The translations under genes and the position numbers were made by a program. This document shows positions 254 through 53,051 of a stretch of DNA of 64,000 nt, piece by piece. The stretch is from a virus. The notes under the pieces are model-generated. The model did no database searches. It was not told the origin of the DNA and saw only the letters and a program-made list of their open reading frames with translations. How positions within the stretch are numbered: position 1 is the first letter of the stretch; every line of letters starts with the position of its first letter. The stretch lies in IMG/VR virus record IMGVR_UViG_3300037485_001404, positions 1 through 64,000 of that record; one strand, 5' to 3'.

Positions 254-468
254 AAGCGAATATCGAATTTAATTTGCCAGAGGAACAAGATGAATTTGAA
301 TGCGCCGTTGATGCAACGAAGTGGAAGAAAGTGTGTGAAGATTTTGCTAATAAACTCAGAAACCATTGGAAATATGGCGCTGACGTAAATGCAGAGGGTT
401 TGATAAATCTTGAGAAAATCAAAGAAGAATTCTTTGACTGCCTACATTCTGAGGGTCTTAGTCTCTAG
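250..468 (+). CDS. Phage hypothetical protein, 72 aa (FNLPEEQ-type family)
   Basis: Starts at ATG 250, overlapping the upstream stop. The N-terminus, MKANIEFNLPEEQDEFE, followed by a KW/KYG region (LRNHWKYG), resembles a small protein family widespread in tailed phages, in which a short beta strand with FNLPE is followed by a helix. Function of that family is not known to me. The 3' end overlaps the end of the convergent ThDP-enzyme gene by 11 bases (458-468), so the two operons meet tail to tail with no room for a terminator. Confidence 0.7.
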   Translation: MKANIEFNLPEEQDEFECAVDATKWKKVCEDFANKLRNHWKYGADVNAEGLINLEKIKEEFFDCLHSEGLSL

Positions 469-2200
469 GTAGATGTGGAAACATATCATCATACTCACTA
501 GAAACCATCTTACCGTCTATCATCTTAGAAGCAATCCGGGGCTGCAATACTTGATTTCTCGGTGAGATCACATCGAGAATACAAGGCAACGGATTATCTT
601 GCATTCTTTCGATAGCTCCACGAAGACTGGACACATGCTTTACATCTTCATAATCTATCCCATAAGCAGAAGCTACATCGCTGAGCTGCGGAAGACCCAA
701 GCCAGTATTCATTCCTTCTCCAATATGCCTACCATCTTGGAAGTTCTTCTGGGTTTGTCTGATCAATAGGTATCCGTCATTGTTTACCACTATGATCTTT
801 ATGGGCCAACCATTCCTTGCTATAGTACCTAATTCTTGGATATTGAATTGAATTGAACCATCTCCAGTGATGCAGTAGACAGATGGATCTGCTTCTTTCT
901 TCCTAGCCTCTGCCACTCCAATTACTGCTGGCATATAACCCATGGTAGACAGACCTCCGGTAATGATACACCGTTGTCCTTCCTTAACTCTAAAGGCTTG
1001 AGCAAACGCATGGAAACAAGAACCTGTGTCTACTACAAACACATCACCTTCTCTACTCAACTGCGACAATATATCCATTAGAACATAAGAATTGATACCG
1101 TCGCCTACATCTCTTATATATTCTTTTAAGCATACCGGGAATTGAAATTTCCAACTCTGAGTCACAAATCTCCATCTCTCTGTATTATATGACTCAGGTA
1201 GCCTGTACCGTACCATCTGGACAAACTCTCTGGCATCCATCTCTATCTTCAGGTCTATGTTCAAAGAAGGTTTTTCTAATTCATCCCAGTCTATGTCTAC
1301 CATTATCTTCTTAGCTTTCGGTGCAAACTTGTCATAATCATGACCAATAAGCCCGATAGCCATTCTACATCCAATGGATATAAGCAAATCACAATTGTTT
1401 ATTGCGAAGTTAGCAGCTCTGTCTCCATAGGTTCCAGGGTGGCCTACAAAGCAAAAGTGATCGTAGGGAACTAGATCCATCCCTAGTCTACTGGTAACAA
1501 TAGGGATGTTATGTGTCTCAGCCAAAGCAAGTAGTTCAGTCCTAGCACCAGATACCCTTACGCCAGCGCCAGCTAGGATTAAAGGCTTCTTAGACTTGAG
1601 GATCAAGTCCATTGCTTTGTCTATTTCTGATCTATTGTTTAGTTTGATCTCCATAGGGCTATACCCTACCTGTAGATCAGGGTCCATTTGCATCCCTTGA
1701 ATATCGAGAGGCACTTCAAACCATACAGGTCCTGGTCTACCCTGTTTTGCTTTGTAGATGCACTTCTCTAGCTCATACTTTACACGGTCTACATCTTCGA
1801 TCATGATGAAGTATTTGACTACATGCTCAAATATAGGTTCGGTATCCCAACCTTGCAATGGAAATTGTCTGACGTTAGTTACTCTGGCTTGGGATAATTT
1901 CGATTGACCAGCGAGGATTATACACGGGGAGCCATCAACGTAAGCACCGGCTACCGAAGTGAGCGTGTTGAGCGCCCCAGGGCCAGCCGTGACCATTGCC
2001 ACACCAGGTCTCCCGGTGAATCTCCCCAAGGCTTCAGCCGCCATGACTGCAGCTTGCTCGTGATTATGGCAGACGAATTGCATCTCTGGATGGACACAAA
2101 TTGCATCGGTTAGATGCATTATCATCCCACCTGAAACCATAAAGATTGTCTCTACGCCTTCTGCGTACAGTCTTTGTATGATGTAATCAGCTACTCTCAT
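458..2200 (-). CDS. ThDP-dependent acetolactate synthase-like enzyme
   Basis: A 580-residue protein with the three-domain layout of the acetolactate synthase/pyruvate oxidase superfamily. Seen: the ThDP-activating glutamate in HNHEQA (E48), a central domain, and the ThDP/Mg motif GDGS (446-449) closing with NN (473-474). Family knowledge: such enzymes decarboxylate a 2-oxo acid and either ligate the carbanion to an acceptor or release the aldehyde; the substrate cannot be read from the motifs. It is the last gene of a three-gene minus-strand operon and its ATG abuts the aldolase stop at 2200. An enzyme of this kind is not part of the classical meta-cleavage route to which its two neighbours belong, which argues for a synthetic role. 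Full length, with no frameshift. Unusual cargo for a phage. Confidence 0.88.
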   Translation of the reverse strand: MRVADYIIQRLYAEGVETIFMVSGGMIMHLTDAICVHPEMQFVCHNHEQAAVMAAEALGRFTGRPGVAMVTAGPGALNTLTSVAGAYVDGSPCIILAGQSKLSQARVTNVRQFPLQGWDTEPIFEHVVKYFIMIEDVDRVKYELEKCIYKAKQGRPGPVWFEVPLDIQGMQMDPDLQVGYSPMEIKLNNRSEIDKAMDLILKSKKPLILAGAGVRVSGARTELLALAETHNIPIVTSRLGMDLVPYDHFCFVGHPGTYGDRAANFAINNCDLLISIGCRMAIGLIGHDYDKFAPKAKKIMVDIDWDELEKPSLNIDLKIEMDAREFVQMVRYRLPESYNTERWRFVTQSWKFQFPVCLKEYIRDVGDGINSYVLMDILSQLSREGDVFVVDTGSCFHAFAQAFRVKEGQRCIITGGLSTMGYMPAVIGVAEARKKEADPSVYCITGDGSIQFNIQELGTIARNGWPIKIIVVNNDGYLLIRQTQKNFQDGRHIGEGMNTGLGLPQLSDVASAYGIDYEDVKHVSSLRGAIERMQDNPLPCILDVISPRNQVLQPRIASKMIDGKMVSSEYDDMFPHLPRD

Positions 2201-3186
2201 TACCTACTCAACCTTTCTGCTACCTCAAGTATGATATCTTCTTGTCCCCCAACTATTCCTCGTTTGCCTAGCTCGCGGATAACTTGGTGTGGGTTGACGT
2301 TATACCTCTCTGAGACTCTGATAATGTGCTTGATAAATCCTGAAAACACACCCGATATTCCACTGGTGATACATTCATTAGAAATGCTGTGAGTTTTAGC
2401 GAACAGTTTCTCAGCTAGGAGTACAGCATCAAACAACTTATCTAGGTTTATACCACAATACTCACGGTAGATAGAGACCAGTATTTCAATGGGAGTATTA
2501 CCTGCTCCAGCTCCAAAACCCTTAGCTGTACCGTCAATAATGGTGGCTCCTGCCCCGATTGCTTCCAGGCTATTCGCAACGCTTAGGCCGAGATTATTAT
2601 GGGCATGAAAACCAATAGGTATTGGGAGGTATTTGGACAGTTTGGAGATCCGCAGTCTCACATCATCGGGGAACATCGTGCCAGCGGAATCCATCAAAAT
2701 GACAGCTTCCGCTCCATATCTCTCCATCTTTTCTGCTTCCAATAACAACGCTACAGATTCTAGCATGTGAGACATCATCAATACACCATAAGGTATCTTA
2801 CCTGCAGCCCTTACATGCCGGATATGCCGTTCAGTTATGTTAGCTTCAGAGCAATGACAAGCTATTCTAAAGATGTCAGCTCCTGCCTCGATTGCAGGTT
2901 GGATGTCTTTTTTGATCGTGGCAAACCCAGGTATGGCAAAGACTTGTAGCTTGGCTTTCTTTAATGCTGATTTAGCAGCTCTAAGCATATCGAAGTCGGA
3001 TTCTTTTGATTCCCCGAGCTGAAGGGAACTAGCACCAAGTCCATTACCATGGCCTACTTCTACAGCATAAATTCCAGTTGCATCTAAGGCTTTACAATAT
3101 TGCGTTATATGGTCTACGGATAATTGGTGAGAAGCTGCATGATTCCCATCTCTCAAGGTAACATCTGTAAAGGTGACTCCTTTCAT
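2200..3186 (-). CDS. 4-hydroxy-2-oxovalerate aldolase (DmpG-like)
   Basis: A 328-residue protein of the HMGL-like TIM-barrel aldolases. Seen: TLRDGNHA near the start (R12, D13, H16 correspond to the catalytic Arg, metal-binding Asp and catalytic His of DmpG) and the metal ligands HAH in GFHAHNNLG (H194, H196). The C-terminal GGQEDIILEVA part is also typical. Known reaction: reversible, Mn-dependent cleavage of 4-hydroxy-2-oxovalerate to pyruvate and acetaldehyde, with acetaldehyde channelled to an acylating dehydrogenase. That partner is the gene just upstream, sharing a 4-base ATGA overlap (3183-3186), so a heteromeric complex is likely. Slightly shorter than the usual ~340 residues. Hydratase and decarboxylase genes of the degradation pathway are absent nearby. 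Confidence 0.92.
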   Translation of the reverse strand: MKGVTFTDVTLRDGNHAASHQLSVDHITQYCKALDATGIYAVEVGHGNGLGASSLQLGESKESDFDMLRAAKSALKKAKLQVFAIPGFATIKKDIQPAIEAGADIFRIACHCSEANITERHIRHVRAAGKIPYGVLMMSHMLESVALLLEAEKMERYGAEAVILMDSAGTMFPDDVRLRISKLSKYLPIPIGFHAHNNLGLSVANSLEAIGAGATIIDGTAKGFGAGAGNTPIEILVSIYREYCGINLDKLFDAVLLAEKLFAKTHSISNECITSGISGVFSGFIKHIIRVSERYNVNPHQVIRELGKRGIVGGQEDIILEVAERLSR

Positions 3187-4040
3187 ACTCCCCCCTTTTC
3201 AATTTCTTCAGCCAGTGCTATAGCAGCACAGTTGATAATGTCCAGGTTTCCGGCATAGGTTGGAAGATAATCTCCTCTCCCTGTTACCTTTATCGTCACA
3301 CAAATCCTGCCATTCTCAAGTATAGGCCAAAGGATTATCTGATACCCCTGAACATACACTTCCATTTCTTTTTCAAGAAACTTGAGACAATTATTCAAAG
3401 TATTCAAGTTGGCCATTTGTACTTTTGCATAGATAGTAGTTTGCATATCAATAGGGGGTTGAGCGGGGTTGAGATTTAGTATTGCTTTTGATCTAGTCAC
3501 TCCAGTGAACAATTTGATAGCACTCTCAGTGGCGTGGATGTACTCATCCAGATTGGCGCGCGTTGCAAGCCCCGCACTGTATGATGAAATACTAGATACC
3601 ACTTCGATATATTCTACCTTAAGTTGAGTCTTACTTATGGCCCATGCAATTGGGATGGCAGCTTGTCCACCGCATGTGATCAAACTTAGATTGTTATAGT
3701 TCAAGCATTCCAGCATATTTATTGCGGGGATGCAAGACTTCCCAATCTTGGATGGAGTCAAGTCAATGACACGAATACCGAGCTTAGATAGCACTTCATT
3801 ATGGATCAAATGAGACTCAGCAGAGGTGCAGTCAAAGACCATTTTGCAGCATTTAGGATTATCTTTGATATAGTCTATCCCTCTATCGCTGCATACGACT
3901 CCTGTTTTTGCGCCCACCGCCATTCCAGGGGAATCGAAGTTCCTTCCAAGAAAAGCAGTGCATTCTAAATGCTTCGACCTCATTACTTTGATCAGTAGAT
4001 CCGTACCGACATTCCCGGTCCCTAAGATTGCAACCTTCAT
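3183..4040 (-). CDS. Acylating acetaldehyde dehydrogenase (DmpF/MhpF-like)
   Basis: First gene of the minus-strand metabolic operon, 285 residues. Seen: an N-terminal Rossmann motif GTGNVGTD (residues 7-14), the FDCTSA segment (69-74), and the catalytic cysteine in TCGGQAAIP (C123), all as in acylating acetaldehyde dehydrogenases. Known reaction: acetaldehyde + NAD + CoA to acetyl-CoA + NADH, reversible. In bacteria this enzyme forms a channelling complex with the aldolase encoded next. A strong ribosome site (GGAGG on the minus strand, 4049-4053) sits 8 bases before the ATG. A sigma70-like promoter lies just upstream. Around 20-30 residues shorter than typical, but all key residues are present. 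Confidence 0.92.
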   Translation of the reverse strand: MKVAILGTGNVGTDLLIKVMRSKHLECTAFLGRNFDSPGMAVGAKTGVVCSDRGIDYIKDNPKCCKMVFDCTSAESHLIHNEVLSKLGIRVIDLTPSKIGKSCIPAINMLECLNYNNLSLITCGGQAAIPIAWAISKTQLKVEYIEVVSSISSYSAGLATRANLDEYIHATESAIKLFTGVTRSKAILNLNPAQPPIDMQTTIYAKVQMANLNTLNNCLKFLEKEMEVYVQGYQIILWPILENGRICVTIKVTGRGDYLPTYAGNLDIINCAAIALAEEIEKGGV

Positions 4041-4059
4041 GATATTTTCCTCCGAAAAG

Positions 4060-4088
4060 AAGATACCTTAAGATTGTGAGAAGTTCAA
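4060..4088 (-). promoter_or_regulatory. Sigma70-like promoter for the metabolic operon
   Basis: Read on the minus strand: -35 TTGAAC (4083-4088), a 17-base spacer, and -10 TATCTT (4060-4065). It is followed by a short leader with a GGAGG site and the ATG at 4040. Matches are 4-5 of 6 in each box with ideal spacing. It faces away from the + strand promoter at 4121-4149. Confidence 0.6.
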
Positions 4089-4091
4089 GCA

Positions 4092-4110
4092 GTGTCTATA
4101 GATTAGACAC
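4092..4110. promoter_or_regulatory. Operator-like inverted repeat between divergent promoters
   Basis: Perfect 7-base arms GTGTCTA (4092-4098) and TAGACAC (4104-4110) with a 5-base centre. It lies between the -35 boxes of the minus promoter (4083-4088) and the plus promoter (4121-4126), so a dimeric regulator bound here could control both directions. No adjacent regulator gene is visible. Confidence 0.45.
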
Positions 4111-4120
4111 CTAAAAGGGG

Positions 4121-4149
4121 TTGACAAAGGGTCCGGGAGGGGGTAGGCT
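4121..4149 (+). promoter_or_regulatory. Sigma70-like promoter for the nuclease/helicase genes
   Basis: Consensus -35 TTGACA (4121-4126), a 17-base spacer and a weaker -10 TAGGCT (4144-4149). It lies about 80 bases upstream of the first + gene at 4230. The leader contains a short palindrome, GGAAAAGGTTTTCC (4179-4192). Confidence 0.55.
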
Positions 4150-4229
4150 TGACTCTCCCCTGCGAGGACCGCCAAGTTGGAAAAGGTTTTCCTATCAGGC
4201 ACTTTCGCACAATATGAAAGGTTCCCACT

Positions 4230-7329: not shown

Positions 7330-8618
7330 CTATCATCCTGTACCAGCATCAATTGGAAACGTACGATAGGCTGGTAAAAGAAAAGTACCTGCTTATCGGA
7401 TCAGAGCAGGGTACAGGAAAGTCCTTTCCTGCAATTAAACTAGCCTGTGAACTTAAAAGACGCTGTGTCATAGTGTCTCCCGCGTACCTTTGTGAAAACT
7501 GGTATCGTGAGACTAAGGTTTGGGACGAGAACGCTGATGTCTCTATCTTTCCCAAGATGGCACGCATAACAATTATCAGCTACGACAGAGCATATAAATC
7601 CACTCAGTTGTTCCAATCTATTCAATGTCTAATTCTAGACGAGGTACAGAAGATTGCCAACCTGAGTACCAAGAGAACAAAAGCTATACATGAAGCAGTA
7701 AAACTCTACCGTCCTGAATATGTGGGCCTACTCTCTGGAACACCTATGCGGAATAGAGTACCGGAACTCTATTCTCCTTTAACCCTTCTAGATTATGGCA
7801 GAGAGATGGGTTTCAAAATTGCATTTCCATCTCAGTTTATGTTCAATATGACCTTCTGTGAAATGTTTAATCAGAAGATAGGGTTCAGGTCTATAACGCA
7901 GTTCAGGGGATGCAAGAATGAGGACCTACTGAAAAAATGGCTGCAGCCAGCGATGATCAGATATAAATTGGATGAGTGTACGGATATCCCGGAAGTCGTA
8001 TACTGCAATAGAACTATAAATGCAGATGTGGATAGGGACCTGGAACTTCTCATGGGCACCTCTGTAGATAGAATCCTCGAAGGAGGATGGGAGAATATAG
8101 CGATACCTGATACCCCTCCTGCACACATCATGTCGGCTAAGATGGAATCAGCTATGATGAAGGCTCCATCTACAGTGGAGATTGTTCTAGAGGAACTAGA
8201 ATCCAATAACCCAATTGTAGTATTCTCTGATCATGTTAGACCTGTCCACATGATGGCCGAAGCATTGAGGGAGAAGAAGTTTAAGGTCGCTACGATTACT
8301 GGTTCTACTCCAATGAAAGAGCGTGACAACAATGTTCAAGCATTCCAAGCTGGAAAGCTAGACGTACTTATTGGGACCATAGGTGCTATGTCCACAGGGA
8401 TAACGCTCACAAAGTCTAGGGTCTGCATTTTCAACGATATGTCGTGGGTACCAGCAGATAACATGCAGGCTGTGGGAAGAATTAGACGTATCACTCAGAC
8501 AAGAAAATGCCTCGTTATCCAAGTGACCCGTAAAGGGATTGATTCTAAGATAACGAGGATGCTGAATGAGAAGGCAAAGACCATTAAATCTATTATAGAT
8601 TCAGCTAGTCCTTCTTAG
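7326..8618 (+). CDS. SNF2-type DEAD-like helicase / ATPase
   Basis: A 430-residue superfamily 2 helicase. Seen: Q-motif-like YQHQLETYDRL, Walker A GSEQGTGKS (K32), Walker B DEVQ (105-108), motif III LSGTP (136-140), and in the second RecA domain VFSDHVRP, the VLIGTIGAMSTGITLT segment, and motif VI QAVGRIRR. This pattern is typical of short phage SNF2/DEXDc helicases that translocate on double-stranded DNA. With the Cas4-like nuclease and SSB-like gene upstream it suggests a recombination or replication-restart module. The 3' end overlaps the end of the convergent structural gene by 14 bases (8605-8618). Confidence 0.88.
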   Translation: MTIILYQHQLETYDRLVKEKYLLIGSEQGTGKSFPAIKLACELKRRCVIVSPAYLCENWYRETKVWDENADVSIFPKMARITIISYDRAYKSTQLFQSIQCLILDEVQKIANLSTKRTKAIHEAVKLYRPEYVGLLSGTPMRNRVPELYSPLTLLDYGREMGFKIAFPSQFMFNMTFCEMFNQKIGFRSITQFRGCKNEDLLKKWLQPAMIRYKLDECTDIPEVVYCNRTINADVDRDLELLMGTSVDRILEGGWENIAIPDTPPAHIMSAKMESAMMKAPSTVEIVLEELESNNPIVVFSDHVRPVHMMAEALREKKFKVATITGSTPMKERDNNVQAFQAGKLDVLIGTIGAMSTGITLTKSRVCIFNDMSWVPADNMQAVGRIRRITQTRKCLVIQVTRKGIDSKITRMLNEKAKTIKSIIDSASPS

Positions 8619-11600
8619 GTCTAATCTTCATCATATCTATCAAATTCTTCATTCTCTCAGGGTCACCCTTCTCAAACATCTTAGGATCTAGGTCTTCTGG
8701 TTTCTCATAGATTGGCTCAAGTATCTTGCCTGCTGTACTCTTGTCTACTCTTCCAAGTGCTCCAGACTTAGCTAAGATGTCATAGGTTTCATCCCATTCC
8801 TGGAAGCTTCTATCCATAGCTTGAGCTTGTGCAGCCAAGTCGTCTATTTCTTCTTTGCTGTAACCCAGAGCGGGTCCAACATCGTTGTACCATTTATCAT
8901 AGAAGAAAGAGTTATCAGGTCCGGTGTACTTATTGAATCCAAACTTGACAAGTAAATCCTGCCAGGGATAGTAATGCTCTTTAGCCTGCGATTCACGTTG
9001 TCTGAGTACGTCAAACCCTACTTGCTCTGAGGCACTCATTGCCTCGCTCATTTCGTATTCTCTTCTCATATTTCTCATGATGTATGCGATCTTGAGAGGA
9101 CCGATATCTTTGATAAGCCAAGAAGAGAACACGTTGCTGCGAAACATGGTATCACCGAACATGTTCCACTTCATTGTACTGTAGTAATCCTGGAGTTTGA
9201 TAATCTCCATGTCTATTTCTTGAGCTTCTTTGAACTTGCCTTCTTTATGTAGAGCATTCCTATTGCTTCTCATGATATTGACTTTGGACTCCAGAAATGG
9301 GAGTTCTTTAGTCACAGATTCATAACCCATAGCTGAGGATGTTTCTATCCAATCTTTAATAGCTACACCACCGTAGGCCAGACTTGAACTCCACATATCC
9401 TGGACACCACGGGATGAAAGAGGAACTCTCATTTCAGAAGGAATAGCCAAGGGAACCGCCCTGTCGATATCTTTGAACCCGTAACCAAAAGCTGCGAGTT
9501 GGTTCTCATGACCCTCGAAGAGTTTAGAAAGCCAGTATTCTCTCTCTTCTCTCTCCTTATCCAGTTTAACCTTCTCCATCACGGATTGTCCAAAACCGTT
9601 CTTGAGGAAGTAAGCGGCTCCCATCATTCCTACCAAACCAAACCCGCTAGCATAGACCATTCCTTGCAAGGGCAATGGCATATTTGTGTTACCTGTCTTC
9701 CTAAGCATCGACTCGAATCTAGCTATTCTATTTGCAGTGAATCTAGCTGCATCTACTGAGTTGATTATTACCTTGTACGGACCTTGAGTAATAGCAGAAT
9801 AGAACAGAGACATCTTAGGAAACAGAGGTGAAATGTTATTGATCATAATGGGTGCGGATAATGGACCGAACTTACCGATCACCTCTGAATGAAAGGTCTG
9901 CATAAAGTTCTGTGCAGCAACGTAGGGGGTTCCAGCCTTTACTGCTTTATCTATAGCTAACACCTGCGCCCATACCACGTTAGTGGGGGCTGATCTTAGA
10001 CTATCTTGAATCAACTTGGCTGCTAGCTGTCTGGAATCTGATCTTCCAGATACTAGCAATACTTTAGCTGCCTCGTAGACAGTAGCCGCATTCTCAAGGG
10101 CCATGTGAGAGATGGCAAGTTCAAGGTGTTCTTTTGCATTTCGAGTGAGTAAGTCTTTCCCTTTCTCCCAGAAAGATTGCCATGAACTGGCGTATCCTAC
10201 CCCTCCCATTTTTGTGCCAGGTCTAACATCCAGCAATGCCCTCTGAGCCATTACTGTATTTCTGTGGTCGGCATCTATCAATCCTGCCAAAGTTCTATTG
10301 ATTATAGGACCGAGGTTGGCTCGGTTACTAAGTGCTGTGGCATCTTTTCTAAACAGAACTTGAGAGGTGAAAGACCACCCAATCCTTGCCGCAGAAGCAA
10401 AGAACTTAAACACATAGTCAGGAGCAATACCAAATGCTGCACCAGGGATACCGCCTAAAGAAAATCCAGCTACCCCAAGACCTACTCTTACCGGAGCCTT
10501 TACATACTTCGGGACTCCCCTTAATGCACTAGACCCTGACTGAGTTAGCATGAAGTTTATTGCAGTAATTGCATTGTAGAATAAACTCAGAGGATTAGAT
10601 AATCTTGTGGTCAATGCAGCAGCATTGAGAAAGAGATCCGTGAGAGGCTTAATGACAACGAGGGTAGCGAGACCACCAGGGACTTTTCCCGCTATGTTGT
10701 AAGCTGCCCGAGTGAGGGTTGTCTCAAGATGGTAGAATTTGTTATCCAGTCTGGCAAACTGTTTCATATCTCTACCACCGGCCATGAAAGTCTTGACATA
10801 GCTGTCTACTTTTTCATACCCCATACTCTTAGTGAGTAATCTGTATTTATCCAACACGGTCCTTGAGTGGGCTAGATATGCTCCTTTGATTATTCGTCTA
10901 GAGCTTTCTTGCAGTGTCAGTACAGGGTGTGAGATGTCAGAGGCATCGTCCAATCTGTTAGCCTTGGCGATTTGTCCTGCTTCTGAGGTACCAAATGATC
11001 GTGAGAAATCTTCACCTGTGTATAGAGTATCGGACAAATCATCGATATCATAATTTCTAATCTTCTCGTTCATGACACGTTGTTCGCGCCATTTCTTTGG
11101 GGGTATGTATGTTTTGGTTTGAGCGTACCTCTGGTCTGCATTCTGCTTCTCCAAGATACTGACATGCTCACTAAATACCAAAGAATCCATATCCCTGAAC
11201 CATTTACGTTCTGACCATACAGTTTCCCAGAAGTGCTCATCCTTCTCTGAGAATTCTTTCAGATAGTCAAAGTCTTTATTCGCTTCGTCAACTATTCTTT
11301 GGTAATACTTTGCTCTCTCCTTCGGAGGAAGCTTAGATATATGGTCAGCATCGTATTGTCTTCGGAGTTCTGTATGCCTTGCTATAAACCCTCTTTTATT
11401 GTTATTGGTATAGATACCTTGAGTGTTCTCATTTTCTACCATAAACATCTGCTGAATAACCTTACCCTTGCTGGTAAGGTAGTGCCCACCTTCGTATCCT
11501 CTATGCCCGTCGTAGAAGCCCGAGAATCCAGCCATACCATCTATCTTCTTAAGGGCTAAGGTGACATCTTCTCCCCAGTTCAGAATAGCTCTATGGCGAG

Positions 11601-14600
11601 AGGACACACGCTGACTCCATATCTTATAGATCGCTCTATCGCCTTTTCTATTATCTTCTGCGAATGTAGCAAGGCCCTGGACTGAGGCATAGCCTGTCCT
11701 AACTGCCATCTCATGCTCGCCCATAGTAGCTGTCCACCAGCCTTCATAGGCACTGCGATTAAGCTCTTTGAGCTTCGCTTCGGCACTAACCTGGAGCCGT
11801 GTCAGGTTGAGATAGCCTCTCTGCAAATCCTTCCAAGCATCAAAGGCATTGGTAGGGACGAGAAATTGAGCTAGAAGCATTTCCTTGTCCATCTCTTTAC
11901 CAAAGATCTGTTGGTGCATCTCCGATAACCCTTCCAGCATTCCTTCTGGCAAGTGTGTCAGAGCAGCTTTAATATTTGAGATGTGAGCTTCCATCACGTT
12001 TCTATACTCTGCCGGATTCTCTATCTTGCGGAGCTTATATGCCAAACCCCCTGTCAATTCCATGAACATTTCATATTTACGCTCATGACTGAATGGCATA
12101 TTCTCTGTGAAATCATTCCAGAGAGGAGATAAATCTCTCATAGCTCGGATAGCGGAGGTTCTGAATCTCTCAATGTTGAATTCATTGATAGCGTGAGAAG
12201 CCTTAGCTAATGCGGTGAAGAAAGAATCTGAATCCCCGTATTCGACTACATTCTTAACTGATTTCTCTATATCTAGAACCCAAGACCTCTCCCTATTGTA
12301 CTGCTTCAATGCTTTATGAAATAGAGTTGTGGAAGAGGTGTACCCTTTGGCGGTATTCTTAAGTTCTTCTTTAACCATTCTAAGTTGGTCTTCAAAAGCT
12401 TTAATATCTTGAGGTCTATCGCCCATAGCGGATTCTTCTATAAGGCTTTCGATATCCGATTTCTGCTTTCTAAGATTTGCGCCTGTCACTGTGTCAGTTA
12501 GCTCTTTGTACTCAGCGGTGAGGTTCTCAGGAATAGCTCTCCCCATAGTCATATGGTTTGATATCTTTTCCAGATTGACCAGCATCTTTCCTTCGTTTTC
12601 AGCAGGGAAAGATTTATCAGTCAATAAGTCTCTGTGATGCTCAATGATATTAGAATGAATATCGGGTTGATCGTTCCCATTCTTGAAGATATAATTGACA
12701 AGATTGGATGGTCTGTAGGAAGATTGACTTGAGAGTCTTCTCTGCTTTACAGCGTACTGAGATTGGGTTATTGAATCCTCCATGGAAGAAAGAATCATTT
12801 TCTCTCTGTCAATATCCATCAATCTTTGTTTCTTATTCCATACCTCGACGACTCTTTTTGTTCTCCTAACTGCTCCTCTGAATCCCTCCGAGGTCCCTTT
12901 CATCTCATAAAGCTTGGTGAGCTTCTTTGTCACCTGCTCTTTGGTGAAATTAGATTGTGTCCTGAAAGCATCACGGAGAGTAGCATTGATCTCTACTGCA
13001 GTTCTAATGATTTCATCGTTGCCACCAGAGTTCTTGAGAATGGCCTTCAGTCCCTTGTCAGCCATTCGATAGGATTGCTTGATATCCTCTGCTCTCCTAC
13101 CTAGCTTCTCTACAGTCTTTATTCCAGCAGGGATATTCAATTCCATACTGGATACGCCTTCAAGGATTCCAGCGTTCTTTCTTTTGTTCAACTGTCTTGA
13201 TACGTCATCTGTCTCAGAGTTGAGAAAGTTGTTGAACATATCAACCATGACTTTTCTTCGTACATCATTGACACCAACTCTACCTATGAATTCCTCCATT
13301 GGAGTGTGGATGCTTTCATGGTTCTCTTTCACATAATCCAATAGCTCTTTGGTGTCAGAAGCTCTTCGGTACATTTCTCTCTTAGCTTCTTGGATATCCC
13401 TCATGGATGCTTTATATCCAGGCTCTGCTGTTCTGCCTTCATAGGCAGATTCTATTTTACTCACTCTATTCTGATACGCGAAGTTGATTGCATTGGCATT
13501 TCTGTAGCTCTCAGGTGTCTGACCTGCTACCTCTAAAAGATGAACATCGATCATCTTCTTAATCTCAGGATCGTCTACTCCGATATCAAGAGCTGTTTGA
13601 AGCATATCTGGACTGGTGTCTAGTTTGGTTTCGATTCTTTCCTTGAGTCTATTAGCTCTGGTTACGTTTACTAGTTCATCCTTAATAAGCTTCTGAGGTA
13701 CCCCTTTTATCAGAGGTATTTCCATTTCGCCCGATAAAGTTCTTTCTGCGGTTCCCCTGGAATAGAGATCTTGTGCTATGAGTCTAGCTTGCTTCTGACT
13801 CTTAGGTGTGAAGTCATATCCATGTAAAGCGCCTCCAGCTCCTTGAAGAATTGCAGGCAGCGCAGTATCCAAGACACCCATCCCATCTTGCGGGTATTCC
13901 CGTAGGAATGCCCCCTCTGTGGCTTGGGTGAGTGCAGCCATAGCGCGAGGATGATTTCTCATGGCTCTTATAGCTGCAGCAATCTTTCCAGATGATTTGG
14001 ACATGTTGACTATAGCTTCTGCCTTAAGAACTTGTTCTGCTAGAACCGTTGTAGGTGAAGCATATTTCCCGAGCTTAGATGCCATAGACATCATTGAGAG
14101 GTCATCGTAGAAACCATTTCTAGTAGCGTAGATAAAAGTGTCAGTTACTTGGTCCTGAAACTTTTCCCAGACTTTCTTGTTGACAGATTCAATGCTCTCT
14201 CCAGGCTCTACAATTACCGTAGTGCCGTTGAAATTCATTTCTTTGTCATCATCGAGAACGTCAATCTCTTTCTTTCTATCCCCTGCGAAATCTATTCCTT
14301 CTGGTACCGGAACATAGTCATAGGTTCCTCTTGCCCATCCCACCAAAGCAAGGGGTGCATTGGCAACTATATGATCCATCAACTGAGCGCCGGATTTGAT
14401 AAGAGTACCTAGGTGCTCTGTATCTGGGAATAGTGGATCCCCCCGTTTGAAGTGAGCTTTATTCTCAGCGACATTCATTATTCTCTGTCTGAGCTGAAGA
14501 CCTTTAGATTCACTATCAGGAATACCTGCCGCTTTCTCTGCATCCACGATTTGTCTGGTCAAAGCATCGGCAAGGATTTCATCCTTGTTTGCTTGGATCA

Positions 14601-15150
14601 TATTAGTCTTAATCAATTGCTGCAGGTCTACTTCACCTTTTGGACCTATCTGTAAATCTTGGATGTCCACAGTTTGCGGTGGAGGGAGATCTTCTTCATC
14701 CTCGTCTTTATCTATCGCTTTCCCTGAACTCACAAGGTCCTTAGCAATACCCCAAGCCCCTACCGCAGCTTTTCCTATCCCCCTGAATGCTGGACCCAGT
14801 ACATGCTTTTCTATACCTCCTTCATCTGGGTTAATAAGCCAATCAGGAGATACGAAGGGTAGCTCAGCTCTGCGTTCACTTTCTGCTTGCATAATAGCTT
14901 GCTGGTGAGGTCTTAGAATATGTTTACCCGGTTCAGGCTTTCCACCTTCTACCTTTTGCATAGCTTGTGCAATTTCATTGACCGGAGCTGCTTCTGTTTC
15001 AACTGCTGCCGGTGTGGGAGTAGCAACAGGCTTCTTTGGTTTAATTGCTTCGGGAGTAGCTTCTACTCCCATAGCTTTAGAGATCTCGTCTTGAATGGTT
15101 TCCTCTCCCGATTGAGAGGCTGTTTCATCTTGGTTCAGTTCTTCTTCCAC
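8605..15150 (-). CDS. Giant virion protein, 2181 aa (putative internal/ejection protein)
   Basis: Starts at GTG (minus strand, 15148-15150) with GAGAGGT upstream. The N-terminus is acidic and proline/alanine-rich, followed by long helical, charged stretches (coiled-coil-like through about residues 400-1250). A hydrophobic block lies near residues 1480-1660 with several potential membrane segments (for example GGLATLVVIKPL, VGLGVAGFSLGGIPGAAFG), and further helical regions follow. It is the last gene of the structural operon, where T7-like phages encode their large internal core protein that is ejected to span the cell envelope. No lysozyme or peptidase motif was recognised. Function by position and character, not by sequence family. 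Confidence 0.75.
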   Translation of the reverse strand: MEEELNQDETASQSGEETIQDEISKAMGVEATPEAIKPKKPVATPTPAAVETEAAPVNEIAQAMQKVEGGKPEPGKHILRPHQQAIMQAESERRAELPFVSPDWLINPDEGGIEKHVLGPAFRGIGKAAVGAWGIAKDLVSSGKAIDKDEDEEDLPPPQTVDIQDLQIGPKGEVDLQQLIKTNMIQANKDEILADALTRQIVDAEKAAGIPDSESKGLQLRQRIMNVAENKAHFKRGDPLFPDTEHLGTLIKSGAQLMDHIVANAPLALVGWARGTYDYVPVPEGIDFAGDRKKEIDVLDDDKEMNFNGTTVIVEPGESIESVNKKVWEKFQDQVTDTFIYATRNGFYDDLSMMSMASKLGKYASPTTVLAEQVLKAEAIVNMSKSSGKIAAAIRAMRNHPRAMAALTQATEGAFLREYPQDGMGVLDTALPAILQGAGGALHGYDFTPKSQKQARLIAQDLYSRGTAERTLSGEMEIPLIKGVPQKLIKDELVNVTRANRLKERIETKLDTSPDMLQTALDIGVDDPEIKKMIDVHLLEVAGQTPESYRNANAINFAYQNRVSKIESAYEGRTAEPGYKASMRDIQEAKREMYRRASDTKELLDYVKENHESIHTPMEEFIGRVGVNDVRRKVMVDMFNNFLNSETDDVSRQLNKRKNAGILEGVSSMELNIPAGIKTVEKLGRRAEDIKQSYRMADKGLKAILKNSGGNDEIIRTAVEINATLRDAFRTQSNFTKEQVTKKLTKLYEMKGTSEGFRGAVRRTKRVVEVWNKKQRLMDIDREKMILSSMEDSITQSQYAVKQRRLSSQSSYRPSNLVNYIFKNGNDQPDIHSNIIEHHRDLLTDKSFPAENEGKMLVNLEKISNHMTMGRAIPENLTAEYKELTDTVTGANLRKQKSDIESLIEESAMGDRPQDIKAFEDQLRMVKEELKNTAKGYTSSTTLFHKALKQYNRERSWVLDIEKSVKNVVEYGDSDSFFTALAKASHAINEFNIERFRTSAIRAMRDLSPLWNDFTENMPFSHERKYEMFMELTGGLAYKLRKIENPAEYRNVMEAHISNIKAALTHLPEGMLEGLSEMHQQIFGKEMDKEMLLAQFLVPTNAFDAWKDLQRGYLNLTRLQVSAEAKLKELNRSAYEGWWTATMGEHEMAVRTGYASVQGLATFAEDNRKGDRAIYKIWSQRVSSRHRAILNWGEDVTLALKKIDGMAGFSGFYDGHRGYEGGHYLTSKGKVIQQMFMVENENTQGIYTNNNKRGFIARHTELRRQYDADHISKLPPKERAKYYQRIVDEANKDFDYLKEFSEKDEHFWETVWSERKWFRDMDSLVFSEHVSILEKQNADQRYAQTKTYIPPKKWREQRVMNEKIRNYDIDDLSDTLYTGEDFSRSFGTSEAGQIAKANRLDDASDISHPVLTLQESSRRIIKGAYLAHSRTVLDKYRLLTKSMGYEKVDSYVKTFMAGGRDMKQFARLDNKFYHLETTLTRAAYNIAGKVPGGLATLVVIKPLTDLFLNAAALTTRLSNPLSLFYNAITAINFMLTQSGSSALRGVPKYVKAPVRVGLGVAGFSLGGIPGAAFGIAPDYVFKFFASAARIGWSFTSQVLFRKDATALSNRANLGPIINRTLAGLIDADHRNTVMAQRALLDVRPGTKMGGVGYASSWQSFWEKGKDLLTRNAKEHLELAISHMALENAATVYEAAKVLLVSGRSDSRQLAAKLIQDSLRSAPTNVVWAQVLAIDKAVKAGTPYVAAQNFMQTFHSEVIGKFGPLSAPIMINNISPLFPKMSLFYSAITQGPYKVIINSVDAARFTANRIARFESMLRKTGNTNMPLPLQGMVYASGFGLVGMMGAAYFLKNGFGQSVMEKVKLDKEREEREYWLSKLFEGHENQLAAFGYGFKDIDRAVPLAIPSEMRVPLSSRGVQDMWSSSLAYGGVAIKDWIETSSAMGYESVTKELPFLESKVNIMRSNRNALHKEGKFKEAQEIDMEIIKLQDYYSTMKWNMFGDTMFRSNVFSSWLIKDIGPLKIAYIMRNMRREYEMSEAMSASEQVGFDVLRQRESQAKEHYYPWQDLLVKFGFNKYTGPDNSFFYDKWYNDVGPALGYSKEEIDDLAAQAQAMDRSFQEWDETYDILAKSGALGRVDKSTAGKILEPIYEKPEDLDPKMFEKGDPERMKNLIDMMKIRPKKD

Positions 15151-46797: not shown

Positions 46798-47025
46798 ATG
46801 GCGAAAAGTAATTTGACAGATGCGGAAAAAGCTGAATTTACCTTGTGTAGTACCTCTTACCTTCATGAGCAACTAGGTCAGATTTTCCCTAATTGGGCAT
46901 CTGATATGGAGCGAATGATGCACGAATGGGTCGATGCAGGAACACTGTCGGCAGCGAGTAAGGCAAAGATTAAGACTGAGATTACTGCTGACAGTATAGC
47001 TTACAAGGCGAAAGGAAAGAAGTAA
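46798..47025 (+). CDS. Small hypothetical protein, 75 aa
   Basis: Small helical protein (SDMERMMHEWVDAGTLSAASK) ending in a basic tail. Begins 3 bases after the preceding stop, and its stop shares base 47025 with the next gene. No family recognised. It could act with the preceding 112-aa protein. Confidence 0.55.
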   Translation: MAKSNLTDAEKAEFTLCSTSYLHEQLGQIFPNWASDMERMMHEWVDAGTLSAASKAKIKTEITADSIAYKAKGKK

Positions 47026-47609
47026 TGCATCTCGGTGAAAGATTCTATACTGATTCTGAATTGAAAGACTTCGGTTTCAAAAGCCTCGGAAGAAATGTTC
47101 GGATCAAAAGAAATGCTGGGATCTATTTCACCGAGAATATCTCTATCGGAGACAACGTAAGAGTCGATGACTTCACTGTCATCGTAGCAAGTAAAGAACC
47201 TGTAGTGATAGGAAGCCATGTCCATATAGCCAGTCTTTGCTATATTGCAGGTAGTGACGGTTTCGTTATGGAAGATTTCTCTGGGTTTTCTCCCGGTGTA
47301 CTAGCCTTCACTGGAAGTGATGACTATACCGGGGGGAAACTCACCAATCCTACTATTCCACACCAGTATGCTGGAGGACCTGCAGGTAAAATAATCCTCG
47401 GTAGACACGTTATCATTGGAGCTGGTACTATCCTTCTGCCTAAAACTTCATTAGGGGAAGGATGTTCTGTAGGAGCAGCTTCCTTAGTTAAGTCTGGGGA
47501 TTATCCTCCTTGGGGTATCTATGTGGGATCTCCTGCTAGATGGCTTAAACAAAGGAAGAAAGACCTACTTACACTAGAAAAGAAGTTCTTGGAGGAATGG
47601 AATCAATGA
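47025..47609 (+). CDS. Left-handed beta-helix acyltransferase
   Basis: 194 residues with a run of hexapeptide repeats ([LIV]-G-x4 rungs such as IGDNVRVDD, IGSHVHIAS, LGRHVIIGAGTILLP, LGEGCSVGA), and a typical insertion loop. The end is GIYVGSPARWLKQRKKD, characteristic of the galactoside/xenobiotic acetyltransferase (WbbJ/LacA-like) class. Known activity of the class: acetyl or acyl transfer from CoA to a sugar hydroxyl or amine. It opens a block of sugar-handling genes after the fibre genes and likely decorates a glycan. Confidence 0.85.
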   Translation: MHLGERFYTDSELKDFGFKSLGRNVRIKRNAGIYFTENISIGDNVRVDDFTVIVASKEPVVIGSHVHIASLCYIAGSDGFVMEDFSGFSPGVLAFTGSDDYTGGKLTNPTIPHQYAGGPAGKIILGRHVIIGAGTILLPKTSLGEGCSVGAASLVKSGDYPPWGIYVGSPARWLKQRKKDLLTLEKKFLEEWNQ

Positions 47610-48265
47610 TAGTAGATGTAGTAATGCTTGCGGATTCTAAATCTCCATCTTTGATACAGATGACTCAGAATGCTATTGACACGCTTCATGCCAGTGAGAC
47701 TGATCATCAGTTCAATGTAATTCTAGTAGAGTCTAATCCGCATTTCAAGGGCTATGAAAATGCTCACAACATACATCCAGACTTTAAGTTCAACTATCAC
47801 GGATATATGAAATATGGGTTGCAGCACATCTCTCAACAGTTCTCTGATTTCATCTGTCTAGCAAACAACGATCTAATATTCCATAACCGATGGTTCTCTA
47901 AAATTCTAGAAGCTAGTGAAGCATTACCCGCTGTCCAATCATTCTCTTCTTTCAGTCCAAATGACCCGTGGCCGCATGAATCTGGTTGGTTTCTAGGATA
48001 TGGAGTTGGTGGAGTCGTTACAGGCTGGTTCCTTACTATGAAAAGAGAGATTCTAGATATCATCGACCTCTCAGAAGATGTTTCCTTCTGGTGTTCTGAT
48101 AATATCTACAACGATGAACTGATTAAGCATAAAATTCTACACGCTCTTGTTAGAGATAGCCACGTTACACACTTGGGAGGGTCTACTCTTTTCACCCTAT
48201 CCTCAGCGGATATCGGAAGACTCACTGCCGGACAGGTTGAAGCCTACAATAAGAGGATTAAATGA
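47606..48265 (+). CDS. GT2-like glycosyltransferase, 219 aa
   Basis: GT-A-type fold: start VDVVMLADSKSPSL, a parallel-strand section ending in CLANNDLIFHNRW (the NND stands where the metal/nucleotide-sugar binding DXD sits), and a C-terminal helix segment. I use ATG 47606, overlapping the previous stop, since the earlier ATG is too close to the GGAGG. Compact for the family but without truncation signs. Substrate not readable from sequence. Confidence 0.65.
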   Translation: MIVDVVMLADSKSPSLIQMTQNAIDTLHASETDHQFNVILVESNPHFKGYENAHNIHPDFKFNYHGYMKYGLQHISQQFSDFICLANNDLIFHNRWFSKILEASEALPAVQSFSSFSPNDPWPHESGWFLGYGVGGVVTGWFLTMKREILDIIDLSEDVSFWCSDNIYNDELIKHKILHALVRDSHVTHLGGSTLFTLSSADIGRLTAGQVEAYNKRIK

Positions 48266-49005
48266 AAATACACATCGTATCTCCTCCATATCACTCTTCG
48301 TCAGGGGGAATTAAGGTTCTTCACTATTTAGGATATCTTGCCAATTGGCTAGGACATTCGGTTGATATGCGTACCCTAGGCATGAATCCAGACTGGGGGC
48401 CTTATCATAAGACTGTCATAAACCCAGATATCTACATTCACCCCGAGATAAACCCTGCTACTACCCCAGAAGATGGAAATATTGTCAGATGGGCACTGTA
48501 TTATCCAGGGAGAATAGCTGGGCCAGTGCCTTACCCGGAACATGAACTGGTTTACAGCTTCCACACCAAATACTTGGAAGAAACACAGAAAGCATCCCCT
48601 CACAGGCCAGTAAAAGTATTTTGCTTGTCAGCAGTAGAGCTTCCGGGGTTTACATTTCCCGTAGAACGTACAAATTTGACTTGTTTCTGGGAAGGTAAGG
48701 GAGATAGAACAGGCACACCTACTGAAACTCAAGCAAATGAGATAACAAGAGGCTGGCCTGCTCCACGATCTGAGCTTATTAAGTTTTTTAAGCAGTGTAA
48801 GACTCTATATTCTTGCGATCCATGCTCAGCTATCAACGATGAAGCTATAATGTGTGGGTGTAAAGTAATGCTGTGGGACGGTAAGCAATATAATCCCTAC
48901 ACTGAAGCTGATCCCGAACTGGTGCCTATGGAGATGACTCGGGATTTGAAAAAAGTTGAGCTTTTCCTTAATGAAGTCGCCAAACATTTTTGGATTAAAG
49001 AATGA
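48262..49005 (+). CDS. GT-B-like glycosyltransferase, 247 aa
   Basis: Opens MKIHIVSPPYHSSSGGIKVL, a typical GT-B/GT4 N-terminus with Gly-rich turn. The C-terminal part has LYSCDPCSAINDEAIMCGCK, resembling the nucleotide-sugar binding loop of GT4 enzymes in which E precedes an aliphatic/CG pair. Short for GT4 (usual ~350), so the domains are reduced. Overlaps both neighbours by 4 bases, giving a coupled three-gene block. Confidence 0.65.
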   Translation: MKIHIVSPPYHSSSGGIKVLHYLGYLANWLGHSVDMRTLGMNPDWGPYHKTVINPDIYIHPEINPATTPEDGNIVRWALYYPGRIAGPVPYPEHELVYSFHTKYLEETQKASPHRPVKVFCLSAVELPGFTFPVERTNLTCFWEGKGDRTGTPTETQANEITRGWPAPRSELIKFFKQCKTLYSCDPCSAINDEAIMCGCKVMLWDGKQYNPYTEADPELVPMEMTRDLKKVELFLNEVAKHFWIKE

Positions 49006-49736
49006 AAATAGGAATAGGTATCACGACAAGAAATAGACCAGAACTTTTAGCCTATGCTTTGAAGCATTTCTTAACTTTCCCTACCTTCCATAAGTCAATT
49101 ATCGTAGTTTCGGACGATGATTCAGATGAAGCACCGAAGATACCAGAAGAAGTACACCTTCTTACCTCGAATACTAGGCTTGGAATAGCTAAGAATAAGA
49201 ATAAATGCGTAGATTACCTTAGATCTCAGGGTGTAGACCACTATTTCTTGTTCGACGATGACTGTTTTCCTATCAAATATGCCTGGGATTTACCATTTAT
49301 AGCTCTTTCAGCTACAGATAACATCCACCATAGCCTATACCTGGTAGCTGCTGGTGAGGTTTCTGTGAAGGAGACCCATGAACACTATCTTTCTTACTAC
49401 AATTGTGGTGGATACTGTCTATTCTTCACGAAACATGCCATGGATCTACTGCAAGGAATGAATCCTGAGTTCGGAATCTATGGTTTCGAGCATTCTGAAC
49501 TGTCTAAACGTGCTTTCGATAAAGGTTTGACAGGGTTGAACCAGTTCAATGCTCCTATTAGAGCATCCGAATACCTATTTTCTCTCGATATGGATTCCGG
49601 TTGGCTTCACAAAGAGTCGCCTTTGGGTCCTTTCACAGGGGTTTTCACCTCTTCTGTTGAAAGAGAACGGCCTCTAATTGCTGGATATATCGAAGAAAAT
49701 AGGAAGGTGTATGAAAAAATTGTCCTAGGGAAATAA
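49002..49736 (+). CDS. GT2-like glycosyltransferase, 244 aa
   Basis: GT-A fold: MKIGIGITTRNRPELLAYAL, then VVSDDDSDE and HYFLFDDDCFP, the second being the likely DXD metal site. Family knowledge: GT2 inverting transferases using nucleotide-diphospho sugars. Third glycosyltransferase-like gene of the block. No membrane segment, so it probably works on soluble acceptors (virion protein or DNA) or on a lipid carrier brought by host enzymes. Confidence 0.78.
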   Translation: MKIGIGITTRNRPELLAYALKHFLTFPTFHKSIIVVSDDDSDEAPKIPEEVHLLTSNTRLGIAKNKNKCVDYLRSQGVDHYFLFDDDCFPIKYAWDLPFIALSATDNIHHSLYLVAAGEVSVKETHEHYLSYYNCGGYCLFFTKHAMDLLQGMNPEFGIYGFEHSELSKRAFDKGLTGLNQFNAPIRASEYLFSLDMDSGWLHKESPLGPFTGVFTSSVERERPLIAGYIEENRKVYEKIVLGK

Positions 49737-52007: not shown

Positions 52008-53051
52008 ATGATAAGATTGGGGGTATTGTCTCCTTCGCCAATAGATACCACGGGTTTGTTTAGGGTAGGTTGGCCTCTAGCTCTATTACGTAGGCAAACC
52101 CCTAATTTTGTATATACGTACATCAATGAAGTATCCTGGCTATCGGCATCTCAAATTGATGCTTGTATGTTTCAAAGACCGTTTACTCCTGAGCATGTGA
52201 CAATCCTTAATAGGTTCAAAGAAGAAAGTGTTCCGACCTGGATTGAGTATGATGATCTTCTTACCGCAATACCGAAGCACAATCCTTCTTTCGATACTTA
52301 CGGTAAGCCAGACATACTGGAAGCATTGAAAATAATACCTGCTCTGGTAGATATTATTACAGTTACTACCCCTTACCTCAAAGAATGCCTACAATCCCCT
52401 TCAGTGAAAGATGTTAGAGTTGTCCCCAATGCTTGGGATGACTATCATCTTCCGATGGAACAAGAGAAGCACGCGGTCAACAAATCTCTCCGTATCGTAT
52501 GGAGAGGAAGTCCAACACATATTTCCGATCTTGATCTATATGCCGATCCGGTTATTAGACTGCACAAAGAGGATCCAAGCATTCACTGGTTCTTCCTTGG
52601 GTTTAGACCTTGGTTTACTAGACAAATGGAACAAACACACTGCCATGTCTTCGAGAAACCTCTAGATATGGTAGAATACATTAGATTTTTAGGGACTATC
52701 AGACCAGATATTCTCGTAGTACCTTTGACAGATGATCCGTTTAATAGGGCTAAGAGCAATATTGCTTGGATGGAAGCATCCTTTGCAGATGCTGTGACTG
52801 TTGCTCCTGATTTCCCTGAATGGAATAGACCTGGGATTATAAACTACAAGGATTCTATTCTAGATACGCTATCGGATACGATAGTGAACATTGATTCGTT
52901 GAAGCACAATACAAAACTATCCTGGGATTTCATCCAAGAAAATCTTCTTCTCTCCAAGGTTAATTATTTGAGATGGGAAGTGCTGGAAGAAATAATAAGT
53001 AAGAAGAAGCCTATTACGACTTCTTTCTTACCTCTAGGATCGAGACCCTAA
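52008..53051 (+). CDS. GT4-like glycosyltransferase, 347 aa
   Basis: Starts at ATG 52008 after GGAAAGGG. GT-B look: N-terminal MIRLGVLSPSPIDTTGLFRV, a WIEYDDLL acidic motif, then a second domain with RIVWRGSPTHISDLDLYADP and a late SNIAWMEASFADAVTVAPD, equivalent to the E-x7-E nucleotide-sugar loop of GT4 enzymes. Fourth glycosyltransferase-like protein of this block, separated from the others by the lysis genes. Last + gene before the 1.4 kb non-coding region. Confidence 0.7.
   Translation: MIRLGVLSPSPIDTTGLFRVGWPLALLRRQTPNFVYTYINEVSWLSASQIDACMFQRPFTPEHVTILNRFKEESVPTWIEYDDLLTAIPKHNPSFDTYGKPDILEALKIIPALVDIITVTTPYLKECLQSPSVKDVRVVPNAWDDYHLPMEQEKHAVNKSLRIVWRGSPTHISDLDLYADPVIRLHKEDPSIHWFFLGFRPWFTRQMEQTHCHVFEKPLDMVEYIRFLGTIRPDILVVPLTDDPFNRAKSNIAWMEASFADAVTVAPDFPEWNRPGIINYKDSILDTLSDTIVNIDSLKHNTKLSWDFIQENLLLSKVNYLRWEVLEEIISKKKPITTSFLPLGSRP

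Follow-up and report, generated by a model that had tools for sequence, protein, structure and literature searches.

A three-gene operon in the phage genome described here appears to encode one half of a branched-sugar pathway of the erwiniose type, namely the half that makes the donor and ligates it; the pathway would draw its acceptor from the host and lead to a surface-glycan product; we consider this reading about 75% probable. The window analyzed covers positions 1-64,000 of a virus record of 75,234 bp, the ends of which match each other exactly over 127 bp, as would be expected of a complete, circularly read genome. Since the record encodes terminase, portal, endolysin and family A DNA polymerase, it represents a tailed phage. 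The operon is transcribed leftwards in the order acylating acetaldehyde dehydrogenase (ADH), aldolase, ThDP enzyme, and the relevant features of the window are as follows.

3183-4040, minus strand: acylating acetaldehyde dehydrogenase of the DmpF/BphJ family, branched-sugar subclade (285 aa; assigned by TIGR03215, motifs and tree)
2200-3186, minus strand: class II 4-hydroxy-2-oxovalerate aldolase of the DmpG/BphI family, branched-sugar subclade, with DmpG communication domain (328 aa)
458-2200, minus strand: ThDP-dependent carboligase, JanthE-related (YerE-like), with canonical GDG motif (580 aa; predicted from sequence and fold)
4041-4229: divergent intergenic gap upstream of the operon, with a GGAGG ribosome-binding site just before 4040 and no promoter detected
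4092-4110: perfect 7-bp inverted repeat with 5-nt spacer (GTGTCTA-TAGAT-TAGACAC), a possible operator, not significant
47597-48265, 49002-49736 and 52008-53051: glycosyltransferase-like genes

The initial annotation described three intact genes coupled by overlaps, with all catalytic residues and with a promoter and operator-like palindrome of their own, and that description holds in part. All three open reading frames are complete, they overlap by 4 nt (ATGA) and 1 nt, and purine-rich ribosome-binding sites precede ADH (GGAGG) and the aldolase (GGGGGGAG). Likewise, the catalytic residues are all present: the Arg/Asp/His set and metal-binding His pair of the aldolase (R12, D13, H16, H194 and H196), C123 and the NAD motif GxGxxG of ADH, and E48, D447 and N474 of the ThDP enzyme. 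The promoter was not borne out, since 10 sigma-70-like sites were found in 5 kb versus 11.4 expected, and none sits immediately upstream of 4040 on the minus strand. The palindrome is exact, but a gap this long would hold approximately 0.19 such repeats by chance and no exact second copy occurs in the window, so that an operator is not supported. The GC content of the operon (0.435, versus 0.443 for the genome) and its GC3 are ordinary, arguing against recent import. A terminase search and scan returned distant phage relatives only, and so neither a close sister phage nor an empty site was available for comparison. Elsewhere in the genome, a second glycan block (47025-49736 and 52008-53051) holds a hexapeptide acyltransferase-like gene together with the glycosyltransferase-like genes, a very large open reading frame of 2181 aa occupies 8605-15150 on the minus strand, and a search for tRNA genes in the phage found none.

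The ThDP enzyme possesses the N, M and C domains of its superfamily. By sequence, its nearest characterized relatives are the ketone-accepting lyases of the YerE-like/JanthE kind: a search of PDB sequences placed JanthE (8rph) first with 333 bits, ahead of 5ahk (242 bits), a Pseudomonas protegens enzyme that we take to be the PpYerE of the literature, and of acetolactate synthases (222 bits or less). Identity to JanthE is 32-34%, with a TM of 0.93. Foldseek with an AlphaFold model (pLDDT 88) returned JanthE structures as its first six matches (TM 0.91-0.94), a supporting rather than independent result, since the input alignment was rich in JanthE relatives. In the phylogenetic tree, the phage enzyme and its closest viral relative (L098/L193) are sister to the JanthE/CDG clade with support of 95/86 (97/88 after removal of two long rows), and PpYerE branches off separately and at a greater distance; the branches are long, so that the split from acetolactate synthases is more secure than the precise sister grouping. 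At residues 446-448 the phage enzyme carries GDG in place of the CDG that marks the JanthE clade and that is present in most bacterial and in 54/55 viral ThDP enzymes found with the aldolase and ADH (together, the triad). It is therefore a sister rather than a direct ortholog of these enzymes, and its acceptor may differ.

Two characterized enzymes of the same kin are ErwE, of erwiniose synthesis in Pectobacterium atrosepticum, and JanthE, of Janthinobacterium sp. HH01. The system described here differs in being phage-borne, in lacking RfbF/G/H and a reductase, in having GDG versus the CDG of JanthE, and in that its ThDP enzyme is known from sequence. ErwE prefers 4-hydroxy-2-oxo acids (butanoate, pentanoate and hexanoate) to pyruvate as donors and forms erwiniose from CDP-4-keto-3,6-dideoxyglucose (PMC12247030). 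Erwiniose has ten carbons (PMC8657720), i.e., a C6 sugar plus the C4 unit left after 4-hydroxy-2-oxopentanoate loses CO2. YerE, of yersiniose A synthesis, catalyzes a like type of reaction, adding an acyl anion to CDP-3,6-dideoxy-4-ketoglucose; however, its donor is pyruvate, giving a C2 branch, and no aldolase is needed.

In the pathway that we propose, ADH would convert acetyl-CoA to acetaldehyde and hand it to the aldolase, in which the DmpG communication domain is retained (PF07836, 79.9 bits). The aldolase would join acetaldehyde and pyruvate into 4-hydroxy-2-oxopentanoate, with the (4R) enantiomer as the predicted product. Next, the ThDP enzyme would decarboxylate this compound and place the resulting C4 acyl anion on the keto group of a 4-keto-3,6-dideoxyhexose nucleotide, yielding a C10 branched sugar (C6 + C4). 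The keto-sugar, and probably the reductase, would be drawn from the host. Since bacteria use this trio to put a C4 side chain on a surface sugar, the phage probably remodels the sugar coat; the product would most likely alter a surface glycan, e.g., by changing a receptor or excluding other phages. The initial annotation had arrived at 4-hydroxy-2-oxovalerate made from acetyl-CoA and pyruvate and its ThDP-dependent transfer to a keto-sugar, and the kinship of the ThDP enzyme and the sugar-gene context support that prediction; of the C4 (or C2) unit that it proposed, C4 is the most likely.

The genomic surroundings of related triads point the same way. A bacterial scan with the phage and JanthE sequences as queries recovered 56 loci, 38 of which had both an aldolase and an ADH within the fetched stretch. 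Among these 38, as named by NCBIfam, RfbF occurred in 35, RfbG in 33, RfbH in 37, all three in 32 and a shared SDR in 33; at least one Rfb gene was present in 37/38. The 18 loci without the aldolase/ADH pair, many of them cut by contig ends, had any Rfb gene in 9 cases. Because the bacterial loci were found through the ThDP enzyme, its link to the pair is better judged from the viral set described below. Three Pseudomonas loci (L010, L011 and L014) have two adjoining ThDP genes alongside the aldolase pair, one PpYerE-like (by tree for L011) and one JanthE-like, and could produce sugars bearing two types of branch.

Viral contigs were scanned with alignments of the aldolase and ADH rather than of the ThDP enzyme, giving 67 and 72 loci, respectively, and these formed 63 groups after rows with an identical 100-residue core were merged. 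All three enzymes were present in 58/63 groups. An RfbH-type dehydrase bearing the His-for-Lys signature (SFYPAHH or SFFPAHH) occurred in 26 of the groups. In 35 such viral records that were checked, a gp23 capsid protein of the T4 type was present in 11 and a terminase domain in 8; many viral records are incomplete, and some may derive from algal viruses or from host DNA. Several triad-bearing records of 130-327 kb carry T4-type gp23. The triad is thus common on uncultured viral contigs and is a wider viral trait than one phage. Detection required alignments of relatives: scans of the viral contigs with the single phage ThDP enzyme or aldolase gave no match, a scan with the closest pair of ThDP enzymes recovered only the record of L098 itself, and the INPHARED phage records yielded no aldolase of the triad type, the only full-length match being a Salmonella contig. 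Five viral loci (L130, L131, L095, L181 and L187) have the ThDP gene broken into two open reading frames by a frameshift, insertion or assembly error. In four short viral contigs (L190, L191, L192 and L199) the order is ADH, ThDP enzyme and aldolase, the last of these on the other strand; these contigs may represent a distinct viral lineage.

The nearest relative of the phage ThDP enzyme (55-56% identity) lies in a 192-kb record, IMGVR_UViG_3300025316_000590 (L098), in a run of genes for SDR, RfbF, RfbG, RfbH, GT47, FkbM, an unassigned product, ThDP enzyme, ADH, aldolase and two GT2 enzymes. The triad and RfbF/G/H, all six, therefore occur in one viral record, which also has a terminase-like match. 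Together with the 37/38 bacterial loci, this record gives a strongly positive answer to whether the triad lies beside sugar genes elsewhere, as the initial annotation proposed to ask. The phage shares with erwiniose-type clusters the adjacent donor aldolase, ADH and ThDP enzyme; the RfbF/G/H and SDR reductase genes of such clusters are found in the genomes of its relatives but gave no tblastn match in its own 75,234 bp, so that the acceptor would have to come from the host. The absence of RfbF/G/H would also fit the same chemistry on a different acceptor, with the C4 unit transferred to a non-CDP ketone (e.g., a keto sugar carried on dTDP or GDP, or a precursor for decoration of the virion or phage DNA) and the phage glycosyltransferases acting as partners. 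Consistent with this alternative, the GDG enzyme falls outside the CDG clade, T4-type relatives (L108, for example) have an RfbH-type dehydrase and a dTDP-glucose 4,6-dehydratase-like SDR in place of RfbF/G, and the phage has glycosyltransferases at 47-53 kb. These glycosyltransferases and the acyltransferase could be users of the operon product. However, the closest ThDP relative, that of L098, sits with a complete CDP set, and we regard a non-CDP acceptor as unlikely, though the likeliest of the alternatives.

Enzymes of the aldolase and dehydrogenase families catalyze reversible reactions, and both phage proteins pass the general cut-offs of their families (aldolase versus TIGR03217 (DmpG), 333.8 bits, cut-off 286; ADH versus TIGR03215 (DmpF), 343.2 bits, cut-off 282.25). 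The trees nevertheless place the pair with sugar clusters. Both proteins fall in a sugar-cassette clade (support 100/100 for the aldolase and 100/97 for ADH), outside MhpE/F and the catabolic enzymes of Arcobacter, Thermus, Parageobacillus and Pseudosulfitobacter, and ADH is 50-61% identical to triad ADHs versus 39-42% to the two catabolic ADHs compared. Not all members of this clade come from sugar clusters, as it takes in two plasmid pairs (L003 and L004; 47-48% aldolase identity) that have other neighbors and no Rfb genes. One of these, on a Paraburkholderia symbiotic plasmid (L004:7108-12321), is accompanied by an SDR and a distantly related ThDP enzyme (27%) and may reflect a further biosynthetic role for the aldolase/ADH pair.

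The aldolase also differs from catabolic enzymes in its active site. With BphI numbering set by sequence and by the LLLPG and GVYSSF motifs, the phage residues F83 and F281 correspond to L87 and Y290 of BphI. Among the catabolic aldolases compared, L and Y occupy these positions, whereas bacterial triad aldolases have H at 87 in 33/34 and F at 290 in 33/34, and viral triad aldolases have H at 87 in 59/60 and F at 290 in 55/60. The phage enzyme therefore lacks the Leu87 and Tyr290 that determine 4S stereospecificity in the catabolic BphI/DmpG/MhpE subgroup, and at position 87 its F differs from the H of its triad relatives. BphI is strictly 4S; Y290F alone loses stereocontrol, and L87N or L87W combined with Y290F gives 4R-specific enzymes (PMC3962088). 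Since the F/F combination resembles these engineered variants, the product is predicted to be (4R)-4-hydroxy-2-oxopentanoate.

These observations bear on a degradative or detoxifying role, in which 4-hydroxy-2-oxovalerate would be split to pyruvate and acetyl-CoA, or acetaldehyde removed, to feed central metabolism, the ThDP enzyme being incidental. Reversibility and the family scores would allow it, and the comparable pair of the prasinovirus MpV-1 was read in this way (PMC5371798). The meta-cleavage systems DmpFG, BphIJ and MhpEF share with the phage the two enzyme families, catalytic residues and communication domain, but they lie in separate clades, the phage has F/F for L87/Y290 of BphI, and it lacks their hydratase and decarboxylase partners. 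The initial annotation had noted that the hydratase and decarboxylase are missing, and indeed no homolog of either, nor of the tautomerase, dioxygenase or hydrolase, was found in the 75 kb; none of these partner genes lay beside the bacterial or viral triad loci fetched. Given also the tight linkage of the ThDP enzyme in 58/63 viral groups and the altered stereo-determining residues, a degradative role is improbable.

The strongest NCBIfam score of the ThDP enzyme is to the acetolactate synthase model TIGR00118, and prasinovirus homologs have been annotated accordingly (PMC5371798, PMC5454428). The score, 343.3 bits, falls far below the cut-off of 538.35, and for none of the acetolactate-synthase models within its 25 best NCBIfam matches did the enzyme reach the cut-off. 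Grouping with biosynthetic acetolactate synthases, which the initial annotation took as evidence against a sugar-ligating role, was tested and is absent: an AU test with two reference synthases in the set rejected a clade of the ThDP enzyme with them (p 6e-5), JanthE is nearest by both sequence and fold, and no homolog of the regulatory (ACT) subunit IlvH was found in the 75 kb (tblastn, E <= 1). It is thus very improbable that the ThDP enzyme is an acetolactate synthase supplementing branched-chain amino acids from precursors supplied by the other two genes.

The chemistry proposed for the operon is already known from bacteria. Among viruses, MpV-1 encodes an acetaldehyde dehydrogenase and an oxovalerate aldolase with a TPP/acetolactate-synthase-like gene, a likeness drawn from the published description; it differs in being an algal virus, and its genes were read as detoxification and amino-acid synthesis (PMC5371798). 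A 2026 groundwater virome study classed one 4-hydroxy-2-oxovalerate aldolase as an amino-acid gene (PMC13303688). In the literature searched, which included few subscription journals, we found no report naming the triad as viral branched-sugar synthesis. Returning to the erwiniose-type reading, we think it slightly better than an even chance that the phage operon is a stripped module that diverts a host keto-sugar in order to remodel the host surface, and that viral branched-sugar synthesis from virus-made (4R)-4-hydroxy-2-oxopentanoate is a hitherto unrecognized function widespread among tailed phages, T4-type ones included, with or without sugar-nucleotide genes. Viral genes annotated for amino-acid metabolism or detoxification would then become one biochemical module with a defined product. 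The phage ThDP enzyme adds a GDG-type member to the relatives of JanthE that could serve in the synthesis of tertiary alcohols, and BphI relatives with natural (4R) specificity are predicted on the basis of the two residues whose mutation by chemists reversed the stereospecificity of BphI. For the viruses themselves, these results suggest that sugars ranking among the most elaborate of those on bacterial surfaces are also virus-made.
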